Source of the DNA: Halomonas sp.
GTDB lineage: Bacteria; Pseudomonadota; Gammaproteobacteria; Pseudomonadales; Halomonadaceae
Direction: 5' to 3'
Assembly (NCBI RefSeq): GCF_007625055.1
Contig: NZ_VMQS01000001.1
Span: 73,649 to 137,648, forward strand
Length of the DNA stretch: 64,000 bases
This document shows positions 3,618 through 28,206 of this stretch, piece by piece. The position numbers and the translations under genes are program-made. Within the stretch, counting starts at the first letter, position 1. Every line of letters starts with the position of its first letter. The notes below the pieces were generated by a model. The model was not told where the DNA came from, ran no database searches, and worked only from the letters and a program-made list of their open reading frames with translations.

Positions 3618-5109
3618 CAGCCTGAAAGTCCGGGGTCATGATAGGGCTTGGAATGCCGTTTTGAAATTTTGCCCATGGAAGCTCACGGTAAATCCTGCCA
3701 TCACTTGTCAGGGTCAACTGTCCAGTAGCCCCTGATATACGTTCACTTTCGATAAAGTCCTCAATACCTGTTGCAATTTCATAGGCATCAACCCCCATAG
3801 CCATCAATCTGAACATCGACATTTCGCCTTCCTCACGCAAAAGGCGATAGGACTCATAAGACGGCAGGACTTCCTCTCCGCCTACCGCCGCATCAGGAAT
3901 CTGCCAGGGAATATCGACAAAGAACACGTCGTCAAGATCCTGATTGAGGCGTGGCTGCAGCAGGCCTTCATGCAGGTGTGAGGTTGCATAAATGGGTAAA
4001 TCGGATGCGTAATAAAAATCCAGCGTAGGTGGGACCTGGCGTGCATATTCAGGCAGTGCAAGCAAGAATAGCGCATCGATATTCTCCAGTTGAGCGCGCT
4101 CACCGCGAACGTTCAGCGCCGATTCGACCGCACGGGTGACGGCATCGTCTGGCGCATAGCTGACGGCGTTCGTTACGCGACCGCCTGCTTCGCTCCAGGT
4201 GTCCCAGAACGCTTCTCCAGCGCGGCGTCCCCAGTCGTTGTCGGGCACCATGATAGCTATCTGTCGGTGGCCGTCAGTCCAGGCACGCTGTGCAACCTGG
4301 CGTGCTTCATCTTCAGCAGAAAGCCCAAACTGAATCAACTTTTGTGCCTGATTGCGTTCGCTGCGGCCATAGTTGAGTGCCAGGGTAGGCAATGGCACGC
4401 TTTGTTGTGTTTCCAGTGTTGTCACGTTCTCCTTGCTCAAGGGGCCAATGACAAACTCAACCCCCTGTTGGCGAGCCAACTCATAGAGCTCGCCGAGTGA
4501 AGAGTCACTGGAGTCAAAAAAGCTCAGACGGATGGCATTATTCTGCAGGTCATGATGTGCTTTGATAACGTCTTCAATGGTTGAAGCAATGTTGGTCAGG
4601 GCGCCAGATTTTGGCAGGAAAACGCCAATGTGCCCAATAGTACCCAACTCTGTAAGGCCCAGCTGTTCGGCATTGAGCTGTCTGGAGGAGGACAAGGCCC
4701 AACGTCTGCGCTCCTGAAGTGTCTGAAGCTGGTCAGCTGACATGCCCGGTTCATCCTCAAGGAGCTCAGTCGCACGTAGCACTTCTTCTGGCTGGTCAGC
4801 AGATTGTGCCATTGCGGAATAGAAGAGTGCCCAGCGAATCCGGTCTTCCATCGACAGCAGGCTTTCATCAATGTCACCAGCGGTATCAAACGCCAATGAT
4901 TGCTGCCCCTGGCGGTCAAAGGTGAAAGCGGCTTCCAGGCGTGTGATGGCCGCCTGTTCAGGGGACTGCTGTTCCGCTTCACGGAGCAGTTGCTCGGCGT
5001 TGGGGGGAGTGCGCTCAACGACTTCAGGGGGTGACGGCTGGCCGGCACAACCGCCAAGAAAAAGCGCCGTTAATACAATGCTGAATAAGCCACGATATAA
5101 CTGTTTCAT
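3604..5109 (-). CDS. lpoA: Penicillin-binding protein activator LpoA (outer-membrane lipoprotein)
   Basis: LpoA is an outer-membrane lipoprotein that reaches through the periplasm to stimulate PBP1a. The start is the ATG after AAGGAAGG; 22 upstream codons would precede the signal peptide. Lipobox LGGC gives acylated Cys21. A helical TPR-like region spans about residues 40-150. The rest (about 160-500) is a periplasmic-binding-protein-like domain (IGHIGVFLPKSGAL, FVIGPLSKENV, ALFLLALPEYARQV). At 501 residues it is shorter than the E. coli protein, as is usual for Pseudomonas-like species. It is transcribed divergently from rsmI. Confidence 0.9.
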   Translation of the reverse strand: MKQLYRGLFSIVLTALFLGGCAGQPSPPEVVERTPPNAEQLLREAEQQSPEQAAITRLEAAFTFDRQGQQSLAFDTAGDIDESLLSMEDRIRWALFYSAMAQSADQPEEVLRATELLEDEPGMSADQLQTLQERRRWALSSSRQLNAEQLGLTELGTIGHIGVFLPKSGALTNIASTIEDVIKAHHDLQNNAIRLSFFDSSDSSLGELYELARQQGVEFVIGPLSKENVTTLETQQSVPLPTLALNYGRSERNQAQKLIQFGLSAEDEARQVAQRAWTDGHRQIAIMVPDNDWGRRAGEAFWDTWSEAGGRVTNAVSYAPDDAVTRAVESALNVRGERAQLENIDALFLLALPEYARQVPPTLDFYYASDLPIYATSHLHEGLLQPRLNQDLDDVFFVDIPWQIPDAAVGGEEVLPSYESYRLLREEGEMSMFRLMAMGVDAYEIATGIEDFIESERISGATGQLTLTSDGRIYRELPWAKFQNGIPSPIMTPDFQADGES

Positions 5110-23489: not shown

Positions 23490-24401
23490 ATGATCAAACA
23501 ACGCACCCTGCAGAACGTTATTCGTGCCACTGGAGTGGGTCTGCACTCCGGTAAAAAGGTCAACATGGCGTTGCGTCCTGCTCCCGTTGATACGGGAATT
23601 ATTTTTGTCAGAACGGATATTGAACCTGCTGTAGAAATTCCCGCGCGTGCCAATCTGGTAGAAGACACCATGCTGTGTACGGCGCTTTCCTTTGAAGGCG
23701 TGAAAGTGGCAACGGTAGAGCACTTGATGTCAGCTCTGGCTGGGTTGGGTATTGATAACGCTTACATTGATGTCAACGCACCTGAAGTGCCGATCATGGA
23801 TGGCAGTGCCAGCCCATTCGTATTTCTCATTCAGTCTGCAGGTATCATGGAGCAGCCGGCAGCCAAGAAATTCATGCGTATCAAACGCCCGGTGTCCGTG
23901 GTTGAAGACGATAAGGAAGCCCATTTTCTGCCTCATCAAGGCTTCAAGGTATCGTTTTCCATCGATTTTGATCATCCTGCTTTTGATCGTCAGAACCAGA
24001 CCACACGGATTGACTTTTCCACCACTTCTTTTGTCAAAGAGGTCTCCCGGGCGCGGACATTTGGCTTCATGCGCGATATTGAATTCTTGCGTTCGAACAA
24101 CCTTGCGCTGGGAGGTAGCCTGGAAAATGCTATCGTTGTTGATGACTATCGCATCGTCAACGAGGGCGGTTTGCGCTACGACGACGAGTTTGTCAAGCAC
24201 AAGGTGCTGGATGCCATTGGCGACCTTTACCAGTTGGGTTACAGTCTGATCGGTGAGTTTCGTGGCGTAAAATCAGGCCATGCGTTGAATAATCAGCTAT
24301 GCCGTGAATTGCTGGCACAGCCTGATGCCTATGAAATCGTCACCTTTGAAGAAGCATCATCAGTGGCGCCGATTTCGTATTCAGCGCCGGCAATGGCTTA
24401 A
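23490..24401 (+). CDS. lpxC: UDP-3-O-acyl-N-acetylglucosamine deacetylase LpxC
   Basis: LpxC is the zinc deacetylase of the committed step of lipid A synthesis. The metal ligands are all present: His78 (TVEHLMSAL), His237 and Asp241 ([10 protein letters not shown]). The catalytic His264 lies in KSGHALNN. The 303 aa length matches the family. No strong ribosome site is seen before the ATG, but the N-terminus [18 protein letters not shown] fits perfectly. In E. coli LpxC is controlled mainly by FtsH proteolysis. A terminator follows the stop. Confidence 0.96.
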
Positions 24402-24442: not shown

Positions 24443-24467
24443 AAAGCACCGCCTTGGCGGTGCTTTT
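24443..24467. terminator. Bidirectional terminator between lpxC and dciA
   Basis: A perfect 8-bp AGCACCGC/GCGGTGCT stem with a CTTG tetraloop is flanked by A and T runs. It ends lpxC transcription. It also overlaps the stop codon of dciA on the other strand, so it can serve both genes. Confidence 0.85.
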
Positions 24468-24924
24468 AACGTTTTCTGGCATGCGATGCCAATCTGCTCA
24501 GAGCGTCTTTGAGTGCCGGGTCACCGGTCTCTTGTGCACAGGCCGCCAGGGTTTCGCCAGCATCTTTAGAGAGCTCGCGGGTGTTACGCTCAGGTACCTT
24601 GACGGGATGAACCGGTCGTACCTTGAATACCAATGCGCTAACGCCCTCGAACCCTGGTAGCTGGTGCAGTAGCCTCAACAGATTTGACTGCTCAAAGCGT
24701 AACCAGGTTATCCAGCTGGCCTGGCTACTGATGATGGTCAATTTTCCCTGACGAAATCCGCCCACATAAACATGTGCGCGCATTTCTTGCGGCAGATGAG
24801 CTCTGACATGGCGCTGCGCCTGGTCAATCAGACGCGATTGGCGAATCAGGAGGCTGGCACCGCTGCGTTGTTCGAGGAGTTTCCCGATGGGCTGTGCTCG
24901 CGAACGCTTAACCTTTATACTCAT
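24466..24924 (-). CDS. dciA: DUF721 protein, probable DciA (DnaB-helicase operator)
   Basis: The 152-residue protein fits the DUF721/DciA family, which helps load the replicative helicase DnaB in bacteria without DnaC. It is basic at the N-terminus. A KH-like core follows (RAHVYVGGFRQGKLTIISSQASWITWLRFEQSNLL, given as positions of about 50-85), then a tail of low conservation. I start it at ATG 24924; an upstream in-frame TTG adds nine basic residues. A DUF721 gene beside lpxC and secA is typical of Pseudomonas-like genomes. It diverges from the small ORF before secA. Confidence 0.85.
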   Translation of the reverse strand: MSIKVKRSRAQPIGKLLEQRSGASLLIRQSRLIDQAQRHVRAHLPQEMRAHVYVGGFRQGKLTIISSQASWITWLRFEQSNLLRLLHQLPGFEGVSALVFKVRPVHPVKVPERNTRELSKDAGETLAACAQETGDPALKDALSRLASHARKR

Positions 24925-25027
24925 GCGCTTGGCTCTTCGGCTGATCCTCAAATGGGCGTTTGGGGAGGAAACATGATGTTTGCCGTTTAAAAATAAAGCC
25001 TAACACGCTCAGGAGTTTAGCCACAGC

Positions 25028-25399
25028 ATGTCTTTGCCATCTTTATCGCGACCTTTGTCAGAGCGCCGTTCACGTCGCCATGGGGTTGCGCGATGGTGGT
25101 TGGCAGGCCTCTTGGTGGGCTGTCTGCTGCCGGCTACCTTTTCCCCGGTTGATGTCACGCGCAGCGGCGAGCGCAGCGCTTGTGTGGTGTTATTTGTGCC
25201 CGCGGTGTTGAGAGCCCACTCCCGCCATATTGCCTGGGTGCGGCGGGTTTATCAGCGCTGGCTGGGTAGTGCGCCACCCGACGCGGATGTTCAAGTGACG
25301 TCTGGAAAACGATCCGGTGTCATTATTGTATGGTTGGTAGCCGCTCAAGATGTTTTCACGCGTCGTGGTCCACCGTCCAATCGACGTCAGACAATATGA
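25028..25399 (+). CDS. Small exported-type protein at the secM locus; candidate SecM-like arrest peptide
   Basis: I do not recognise a described family. The 123-residue product has an Arg-rich N-terminus (about 1-23), one hydrophobic stretch WWLAGLLVGCLLPATF (23-38) like a signal sequence, and a middle part without clear features. The C-terminus has VWLVAAQ (101-107) and RRGPP (112-116), ending seven residues later. E. coli SecM, in the same lpxC-x-secA slot, stalls ribosomes with FxxxxWIxxxxGIRAGP. Shared here are VW[IL]xxAQ and RxGP, with two extra residues between them. R-x-G/P-P also occurs in other arrest peptides. LVGC could be read as a lipobox. AGGAG lies 12 nt before the ATG. Being a real gene is likely; arrest is inference. 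Confidence 0.7.
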   Translation: MSLPSLSRPLSERRSRRHGVARWWLAGLLVGCLLPATFSPVDVTRSGERSACVVLFVPAVLRAHSRHIAWVRRVYQRWLGSAPPDADVQVTSGKRSGVIIVWLVAAQDVFTRRGPPSNRRQTI

Positions 25400-25453
25400 T
25401 CCTGGTAACATCATTTCTATTAGGCTCCTTGAGCTAAGCTACGTCAATTGGAC
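25375..25453 (+). promoter_or_regulatory. Predicted mRNA hairpin that would hide the secA ribosome-binding site
   Basis: Bases 25375-25387 (GTCCAATCGACGT, inside the small ORF just after its RRGPP codons) pair with 25441-25453 (ACGTCAATTGGAC). Twelve of thirteen positions pair; the exception is one C-A mismatch. The 3' arm contains GGA at 25450-25452, the only Shine-Dalgarno-like bases at proper distance from the secA ATG (25459). The 53-nt loop holds the small ORF's stop codon and a smaller hairpin at 25420-25437 (seven pairs, one bulge). A ribosome stalled at Gly114-Pro115 would cover roughly to 25382 and open the stem. Confidence 0.65.
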
Positions 25454-25458
25454 AGTTC

Positions 25459-28206
25459 ATGATTAATAATTTATTGCGCAAGGTGGTCGGTTCGAAAAAC
25501 GACCGTGAAGTTAAACGAATGCACAAAAGTGTTCATCATATCAATGCTTTCGAGGCAGAGCTTGAAGGGTTGAATGATGATGAACTGCAGGAAAAAACGC
25601 CCCAGCTGCGTCAGCGCCTGAACGACGGCGAGCCACTGGACAGCTTGCTGCCAACGGCATTTGCCGTGGTTCGCGAAGCCAGCAAGCGCGTGATGGGAAT
25701 GCGCCATTTTGATGTGCAGATGGTGGGCGGTATGACGCTGCACCGTGGGCGCATTGCGGAAATGAAGACAGGCGAAGGTAAGACCCTCGTCGCAACCCTG
25801 GCGGTGTATCTCAACGCCTTGCCTGCCAAGGGTGTGCACGTCGTCACTGTCAACGATTACCTGGCCCGCCGGGATGCCGAGTGGATGCGGCCCTTGTACG
25901 AGTTTCTGGGGCTTTCCGTCGGGGTGATCTTTGCAGGGCAGACCAGCACGGAAAAGCGTCACGCCTATCAGTGCGACATTACCTATGGCACCAACAATGA
26001 ATTTGGCTTTGATTACCTGCGCGACAATATGGCCTTCTCGCTGGATGACAAGGTTCAACGCGGACTGCATTACGCGATTGTCGATGAAGTTGACTCCATC
26101 CTGATTGACGAGGCACGGACGCCGCTGATCATATCCGGTGCTGTGGACGAAAACACGGACCTGTACGGCGTTGTCAACCGCCTTGCCCAGCAGTTGGAAG
26201 CCGGTGAGGAAATGGAGGATGAAGAAGCCACGGTTACAGGCGATTTCCTGCTGGATGAAAAACAGAAGCAGGTTGAATTGACCGAGCAGGGCCATAACAA
26301 GGTAGAGGACCTGATGCGCTCGGAAGGCCTGCTGGGTGAAGGCGAGTCCCTCTATGCGGCCCAGAATCTTAACCTGCTGCAGCATATGCATTCTGCCCTG
26401 CGGGCCAGGCACCTGTATCACCGCGATGTGGATTACATTGTCAATGAAGGGCAAGTAGTGATCGTTGACGAGCATACAGGCCGCTCCATGCCCGGGCGTC
26501 GTTGGTCTGAAGGCTTGCACCAGGCCGTGGAGGCCAAGGAAGGCGTTACTGTCCAGCGTGAAAGCCAGACGCTGGCATCGACTACCTTCCAGAACTATTT
26601 CCGTCTGTATGAAAAACTGGCCGGTATGACGGGCACGGCCGATACCGAGGCCTTTGAGTTTCGTCAGATTTATGGTCTGGACGTTATCGTGATCCCGACC
26701 AACCGTCCACTGGTCCGTAAAGACCTTAATGACCTGGTGTTCTTGAGTGCTGAAGAAAAATTTGAAGCCATCATCAAGGATGTCAAGGCGGAAACAGAAG
26801 CCGGCCGCCCTGTGCTGGTGGGCACTGCCTCGATTGAAACATCGGAATACCTGGCAGGTCTGATGCGTGAGGCGAAGCTCGACTTTAACGTACTTAACGC
26901 CAAACAGCATCAGAGTGAAGCTGAAATCATTTCCCAGGCAGGTCGCCCCGGAGCGATTACCATTGCTACCAATATGGCCGGGCGGGGGACCGACATCATG
27001 CTGGGCGGTAACTGGGAAGCGGAAGCCGCCAGACTTGAAAACCCATCTGAGGCTGAGATAGAGGCACTCAAGGCTGAATGGCAGAAGCGCCACGATGCTG
27101 TCCTGGATGCCGGTGGCCTTCACGTTGTCGGTTCTGAGCGTCACGAATCCAGGCGTATCGATAACCAGTTACGCGGCCGCGCTGGGCGTCAGGGAGACCC
27201 TGGTTCAACGCGCTTTTTCCTGTCGCTGGAAGATAGCCTGATGCGCCTGTTCGGTTCTGATCGGGTCAAGCGCCTGATGCAGGCACTGGGTCTTGAGCAC
27301 GGCGAGGCCATCGAACACAAGATGGTTTCCAATGCTGTTGAACGTGCACAGAAAAAGGTCGAGGGGCGCAACTTTGATATTCGTAAGCAGCTGCTTGAAT
27401 ATGATGACGTGGCCAATGACCAGCGCCGCGTAATCTATGAGCAGCGTAATGAGATTCTTGCCGCGGATGAAGTCGCCGAGGCGGTCGTCGGCATCCGTGA
27501 AGAGGTCATGGACGAGGCGGTCAGCCAGTTTGTGCCGCCTCAGAGTCTGGCGGAACAGTGGGACCTGCCGGGTCTTGAGGTGCATCTCAAGACCGAGTTC
27601 AATCTTGACGCGCCCGTGGTGGCGTGGGCCAAGGAAGACCAGCGCCTCAGTGAAGAAAAGCTTCGCGAGCGTCTGCAGGCCATGCATCAACAAGCCTACG
27701 CCGCCAAGGTGGAGGCTGCGGGTGAAAGCCTGATCCGGCGCTTTGAAAAGCAGGTTATGCTGCAGGTGCTGGATACCCGCTGGAAAGAACACCTGCAGTC
27801 CATGGATCATCTGCGTCGAGGGATTCATCTGCGCGGCTATGCGCAAAAAAATCCCAAGCAGGAATATAAGCGTGAGTCTTTTGAGCTGTTTCAAGGTCTG
27901 CTGACCAACATCAAGGCGGATGTCACTCGTATCCTTAGCCACGTTCAGGTGCGCCAGCCAGAAGAAGTCGATGCGCTGGAACAACAGCGGCGTGAGGCGC
28001 TGGCCCGTGAACAGGCCTCAGCCGCCAGCCGTCACGATGAGCCCACGGAGGCCCAGGCGCCAGAGGCCGAAGGAAATGAAGCGCCTGTGCCGCCGGGCGC
28101 CGATGGTCGTCCGGTACGCCGTGAAGGGCCCAAGGTCGGGCGCAATGATCCCTGCCCCTGCGGGTCCGGAAAAAAATATAAGCAGTGCTGTGGCAAGCTT
28201 GATTAG
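25459..28206 (+). CDS. secA: Preprotein translocase ATPase SecA
   Basis: SecA is the motor that drives proteins through SecYEG. Walker A is at 103-109 (KTGEGKT). [14 protein letters not shown] carries the DEAD-like Walker B, and the second helicase half has [16 protein letters not shown] and [13 protein letters not shown]. The C-terminal tail ends with the zinc and SecB-binding motif [13 protein letters not shown]. The length is 915 aa. The ribosome site is very weak (GGA), so efficient translation may depend on the upstream ORF. It lies 59 bp after that ORF. Confidence 0.97.

Follow-up and report, generated by a model that had tools for sequence, protein, structure and literature searches.

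In the window, a stretch of 64,000 nucleotides from a Halomonas genome, the interval from lpxC to secA holds dciA on the opposite strand and a small upstream open reading frame, hereafter the uORF (Table 1). The original prediction placed a 123-codon frame directly upstream of secA and described its N-terminus as basic and then hydrophobic. Both descriptions hold, as the uORF ends 59 bases before the Pfam-supported secA and an Arg-rich start followed by a hydrophobic core is read in its sequence. The Shine-Dalgarno-like CAGGAG of the uORF, or a near variant of it, was seen on inspection at the equivalent position in plus-strand orthologues. No sigma-70-like promoter was recovered by a promoter scan of 24850-25520, the Rfam search returned a single match far below the gathering score, and at E <= 1 neither Pfam nor NCBIfam gave a match to the uORF protein.

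Table 1. Position, strand and supporting evidence of the features at the secA locus of the window
Feature	Position	Strand	Evidence or remark
lpxC	23490-24401	+	
dciA	24466-24951	-	
CAGGAG, Shine-Dalgarno-like site of uORF	25010-25015	+	12 nt upstream of its ATG
uORF (123 codons/aa), presumed secretory arrest peptide	25028-25399	+	ORF, conservation, distribution
Signal-like N-terminal region, residues 1-44	25028-25159	+	Arg-rich start, then WWLAGLLVGCLLPATF
Lipobox-like L29-V30-G31-C32	25112-25123	+	Sequence conservation
Conserved putative arrest segment V104-A-A-Q-D-V-F-T-R-R-G-P-P116	25337-25375	+	Conservation in 93 proteins
Putative RGPP arrest core R113-P116	25364-25375	+	Conservation; predicted P-site P115 (25370-25372) and A-site P116 (25373-25375)
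5' arm of predicted masking helix, GTCCAAT-C-GACGT	25375-25387	+	Pairs with 25441-25453; within predicted footprint of stalled ribosome
3' arm, ACGTC-A-ATTGGAC, holding presumed secA Shine-Dalgarno TTGGA (25448-25452)	25441-25453	+	Predicted pairing
secA, presumed regulated gene	25459-28206	+	Pfam SecA domains

Within the signal-like region, R22, W23, W24, L28, L29, V30 and C32-P35 are invariant among 15 aligned members, and the mean hydropathy of residues 25-39 is 1.88, a value taken from a hydropathy scale and not from a dedicated signal predictor. The most hydrophobic stretch of 12 residues (2.57) lies past the signal in a conserved middle segment, at residues 50-61 (25175-25210, SACVVLFVPAVL). 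The C-terminal end of the uORF is VWLVAAQDVFTRRGPP followed by seven residues, and the C-terminus of the protein reads VWLVAAQDVFTRRGPPSNRRQTI. The distance from residue 44 to P116 is 72 residues, in line with the more than 30 residues that separate signal and motif end in the RQH family of arrest peptides.

A protein search recovered the uORF in 37 of 58 genomes, comprising all 37 of its own genus; the 21 genomes that represented 21 further families of the order gave no match. A 15-row profile detected it in 234 of the 250 genomes sampled from the family. Among 390 genomes of the order, 28 matched this profile; the 18 strong matches (E 2.6e-16 or better) were all in Halomonadaceae, and the remaining 10, which came from other families, spanned 25-56 profile positions with weak E-values (3.6e-4 to 0.01). 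Named genomes were scanned as well, and of the 91 relatives obtained the best 80, which bear the names Halomonas, Vreelandella or Halovibrio, were retained. They contributed 79 proteins, and 14 came from the genus and order protein search, giving 93 parsed proteins (92 distinct). The locus L083 (olivaria TYRC17) was excluded from protein counts; at about position 3711 it has a frame break within the uORF, possibly an assembly error, with RGPP intact in another frame. Six divergent members belonging to five other genera were kept outside the 93.

At the C-terminal end, D108, R113, P115 and P116 are present in all 93 parsed proteins and V109 and G114 in 92 each, with G114 replaced by Ala in one. 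The motif is RGPP in 92/93 and RAPP in 1/93, which agrees with the C-terminal RAPP-like motif of the RQH family. The patterns used to fetch the named genomes were N-terminal and selected for the signal, not for the C-terminus. As the codons of the conserved end vary synonymously among the 79 named proteins (from the best 80 of 91), selection acts on the protein; the uORF is a real gene under protein-level selection. The tail after RGPP varies across the 93 proteins both in sequence and in length (1-13 residues). All six divergent members have a hydrophobic stretch (hydropathy 2.2-2.3 over 12 residues) ahead of the motif, which is RGPP in five and RAPP in one, and D108-V109 is missing in two of the six (G432 and G425). 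A natural RAPP in place of RGPP is found in L105 (Halomonas litopenaei SN20-17) and in L180 (G425).

The original prediction had named W102, Q107 and R112, along with G114 and P115, as the residues that selection should have kept in relatives. Conservation of G114 and P115 was borne out, but W102 occurs in 3/93 proteins, Q107 in 9/93 and R112 in 42/93 (Gln in 38, Pro in 13), and the conserved positions are instead D108, V109, R113, G114, P115 and P116. Judged from the aligned sequences, R113-G-P-P116 forms the core, and the register first proposed was shifted by one residue. An R112-x-G114-P115 reading aligned to the RAGP of SecM was rejected on the conservation in the 93 proteins, and the proposed stall at Gly114/Pro115 was dropped with it. 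Toeprints of RQH peptides show the P-site occupied by the third residue of the motif (PMC10987492), so that P115 is the predicted P-site residue of the stall and P116 that of the A-site.

The cysteine of the signal deserves separate mention. The lipobox-like stretch reads LV[SG]C in 92/93 proteins and LVTC in one (L102), followed by LLP in 93/93, a count that partly reflects the search, as the pattern that retrieved 79 of the 93 included this stretch; LV[SG]C is also present in 30/30 members of the whole-protein-search set. All six divergent members keep the cysteine, and a strict lipobox, judged by the lipobox consensus, is retained only in G431. An A-x-A site about ten residues further on, which would fit ordinary signal peptidase, occurs in 31/93. 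A lipoprotein signal is not known to us from any arrest peptide, and the term lipobox was absent from the literature on translation arrest and arrest peptides among the matches listed. The uORF product might be a lipoprotein precursor whose stall release is tuned by lipoprotein export or maturation in addition to general Sec activity, which would let it monitor lipoprotein traffic in setting SecA. We hold this to be improbable because of the pattern-based fetching and the single strict lipobox among the divergent members.

We looked at the gene content upstream of secA in relatives with and without the uORF. A sequence pattern for M23 peptidase was found upstream of secA in all 15 usable loci among the 16 genomes of the family without the uORF, the truncated L187 (G490) being left out of the gene-content counts. 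Within the DNA examined, the pattern was absent upstream of secA in all six divergent uORF genomes and in 80/80 named loci (best 80 of 91). In 28 genomes from other families of the order the M23 pattern was present in 23, and our filters retained no secretory R(A/G)PP uORF upstream of secA in these 28; the filter removed a single RAPP, from a frame of 35 codons that overlaps M23. A SecA tree of 58 usable tips, which omits 6 of the 28 other-family loci, 65 of the 80 named loci and L095 (empty sequence), split the 21 uORF-bearing tips (6 divergent, 14 named and the window) from all others with a support of 0.98; those 15 tips of the family that lack the uORF clustered elsewhere (support 0.90). 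Two of the loci without the uORF, L188 (G497) and L189 (G424), encode a second SecA-like protein with an open frame of 682 and 697 aa, respectively. The peptide thus marks one clade, in which it occupies the place where relatives have an M23 peptidase, an arrangement newly described here. The simplest reading is a single gain in the ancestor of the clade, with the M23 gene lost or displaced. The suggestion that Pseudomonas-type genomes usually have other genes at this locus fits the relatives sampled, most of which carry the peptidase, and the uORF appears to be independent of SecM.

Downstream of the RGPP codons, the window leader is predicted to form a helix that masks the presumed secA Shine-Dalgarno sequence (Table 1), and a GGA stands shortly before the secA ATG in 80/80 leaders. 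A ribosome with P115 in its P-site would presumably cover the mRNA to about 25386, going by the toeprint distance. In the window leader, 8.6 kcal/mol are needed to open the region from -18 to +5 of the secA start, a cost that drops to 5.0 kcal/mol on removal of the bases up to R+23. None of 40 mononucleotide shuffles of the post-RGPP region masked the secA start as well as the natural sequence; among 60 synonymous recodings of the tail the fraction that did so was 0.02. The whole window leader was not more stable than its shuffles (z -0.81). The leaders L002 and L003 showed drops of 7.9 and 3.7 kcal/mol, and against synonymous recodings neither was outstanding (0.38 each).

Leader analyses of the relatives omit L082, L083 and L101 and use groups made by eye. 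The drop exceeded 1 kcal/mol in 39 of 80 leaders, and as the natural arm lay above the shuffle mean in only 45 of them, there is no family-wide masking effect. The synonymous-recoding test covered 60 of the 80 leaders, and at 0.05 the natural sequence was outstanding in 8/23 leaders of Halomonas proper, 1/3 of the window clade, 0/3 of the L-group and 2/31 of the sampled Vreelandella. By duplex energies the arm stood out (p < 0.05) in 8/23 Halomonas-proper leaders against 0/23 for an upstream control window, and in 0 to 1 leaders in each of the other large groups. Duplex energies do not distinguish the arm in the window clade, where the upstream control had the better score (z -3.0 against z -1.7 for the arm). 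As a yardstick, the secM leader of E. coli gave a drop of 1.4 kcal/mol that was not distinct from shuffles (0.12), and the opening-energy test is on this account not very sensitive. The idea that post-RGPP bases control secA in all relatives was dropped, as support came only from the window leader and from some leaders of Halomonas proper. In three relatives the codons around VAAQD (25336-25359) pair with about 25430-25444 better than shuffles (z about -3); this partner was placed by eye, and the pairing, which crosses the Shine-Dalgarno helix, would form either a pseudoknot or an alternative fold.

For the 23 Halomonas-proper leaders a two-helix structure was drawn from the consensus of the same 23 sequences, a bias in its favour, and 85.0% of its cells were paired against 26.7-42.5% when the structure was slid and 78.8% in shuffles, the last reflecting column composition alone. 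Its covariation score was 0.252 compared with 0.150 in shuffles. Eight pairs had changed on both sides against 5.8 in shuffles, a level reached by 45 of 500 shuffles; two of the eight belong to the 11-pair outer helix, which is the relevant one, and six to the inner hairpin. A degenerate 11-base arm pattern was matched in 14/23 of these leaders, with 10 matches sharing one reading frame and 4 lying in another; the exact 11 bases occur in 9/23 (8 in one frame, 1 in the other). As the arm is matched in differing reading frames, these data suggest RNA-level selection on the arm in Halomonas proper, though descent alone could keep it in close relatives.

Taken together, the uORF very probably encodes a secretion-monitoring arrest peptide of the RGPP type (RQH family), and the arrest itself we infer by analogy. 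The N-terminal signal would bring the nascent chain to the Sec machinery. With R113-G-P115 on the P-site tRNA and Pro116 entering the A-site, peptide bond formation would be blocked, as in the published RAPP and RGPP peptides. The stalled ribosome, lying over about 25375-25386, would prevent the arm at 25375-25387 from pairing with 25441-25453 and leave the secA ribosome-binding site open. Pulling by SecA/SecYEG is expected to release the stall, as it does for SecM. When export works, the ribosome would pass, the helix would form and secA translation would fall, and under export stress secA translation would be raised.

The step from arrest to secA can also be conceived without unmasking, the stalled ribosome acting through its proximity or through translational coupling. 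Opening energies, duplex energies and synonymous recodings mostly did not detect arm-secA coupling in Vreelandella leaders, which speaks for this, but the window leader and part of Halomonas proper have an arm where the stalled ribosome would sit, and an RGPP peptide of Alteromonas regulates secDF2 by such a stem-loop (PMC10987492). We therefore regard action by proximity or coupling as doubtful, while giving it some weight. A further departure from arrest-mediated control is an exported protein, possibly a lipoprotein, that has its own function and in which RGPP arrest is incidental or absent. The conserved C32 and the conserved, partly hydrophobic middle segment would suit such a protein; against it, the strongest conservation outside the signal lies in the last segment up to RGPP, the tail beyond varies, and RAPP-like motifs are reported to be depleted from proteomes (PMC12992588), which makes an own function very improbable.

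The uORF might also be a strongly drifted orthologue of E. coli SecM, for it has the same place upstream of secA and a similar architecture. The likeness to E. coli SecM (FSTPVWISQAQGIRAGP) that had been pointed out is real for the window sequence, in which VW[IL]xxAQ is shared and the spacing from W to the chosen Arg is two residues longer, but with W and Q so rarely kept it is not a property of the family. The E. coli pattern FxxxxWIxxxxGIRAGP was not recovered in the 93 proteins, as W stands at the equivalent position in only the three mentioned and the motif is RGPP or RAPP, never RAGP. The uORF protein gave no match to Pfam SecM (PF06558) at E <= 1. Searched against 274 genomes of the class, the SecM model matched none at E <= 0.001, and in 61 genomes of the family nothing passed the cut-off, seven weak matches at E <= 1 having a best value of 0.003 with internal stops; the E. 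coli control was found in both searches. The 15-row profile compared with the single E. coli SecM sequence gave a probability of 0.3%. The peptide is moreover confined to one clade whose relatives carry M23. SecM orthology was rejected on the Pfam scan, the class and family genome searches and the single-sequence profile comparison, and we consider a drifted SecM very improbable. The proposal of a divergent secretion monitor is thus retained in so far as the sequences support a secretory arrest peptide at secA, but its derivation from SecM by drift is not supported.

If the reading as an RGPP-type secretion monitor is true, one gammaproteobacterial clade has put secA under the regulation of an arrest peptide encoded just ahead of it, at a site that a peptidase gene takes up in its relatives. 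Control of secA by stalling would then have arisen a second time, apart from SecM. What appears to be a single origin, together with the clade-specific RNA arms, would make this a good system for the co-evolution of arrest peptides and mRNA switches, and the conserved signal cysteine raises the testable question of what the peptide senses.

No paper on an arrest peptide of Halomonas, or on a Halomonas SecM with secA, was found in the open-licence PMC literature. We take Halomonadaceae to be placed in Pseudomonadales, as in GTDB 202. RQH arrest peptides, including RGPP peptides upstream of secA, were described by Fujiwara et al. 2024 (PMC10987492), where uA_RQH_Pseudomonadales (R109GPP, upstream of secA) arrested the ribosomes of both E. 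coli and B. subtilis in vitro (fAP > 0.9). Among the motifs compared in PMC12992588, RGPP generally gave the most robust arrest, and EF-P gave no rescue of ApdA/ApdP arrest; the structural basis of RAPP arrest is given in PMC10951233.

Compared with these systems, the uORF peptide looks like a member of the recently described RGPP class and not of the E. coli SecM family. It resembles E. coli SecM in being a secretory uORF upstream of secA with a putative C-terminal Arg-to-Pro arrest core, and the helix over the secA ribosome-binding site of E. coli (PMC10987492) has a predicted counterpart in the window leader. Unlike SecM, the family has RGPP and not RAGP, no conserved W, and Pro instead of Gly in the predicted P-site, and no sequence kinship was found; a masked secA ribosome-binding site would indicate shared function with SecM, not kinship. 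With uA_RQH_Pseudomonadales it has in common a small secretory secA uORF, RGPP near the C-terminus and the GTDB order Pseudomonadales, and by position, motif and order the two are probably the same family. This identity is one that we infer, as the main text of PMC10987492 names no species for that peptide; Arg at residue 109 occurs in 2/93 orthologues, L101 (RGPP) and L105 (RAPP). ApdA, ApdP and ApcA share the RAPP/RAPG core and stall with the third residue in the P-site, as predicted here, but in the actinomycetes and alphaproteobacteria that encode them they precede secDF or yidC. The uDF_RQH_Enterobacterales of Alteromonas naphthalenivorans is likewise an RGPP peptide, whose stall was seen with reporters to open a stem-loop over the downstream ribosome-binding site (PMC10987492), although its target is secDF2 and not secA and it belongs to a different lineage.
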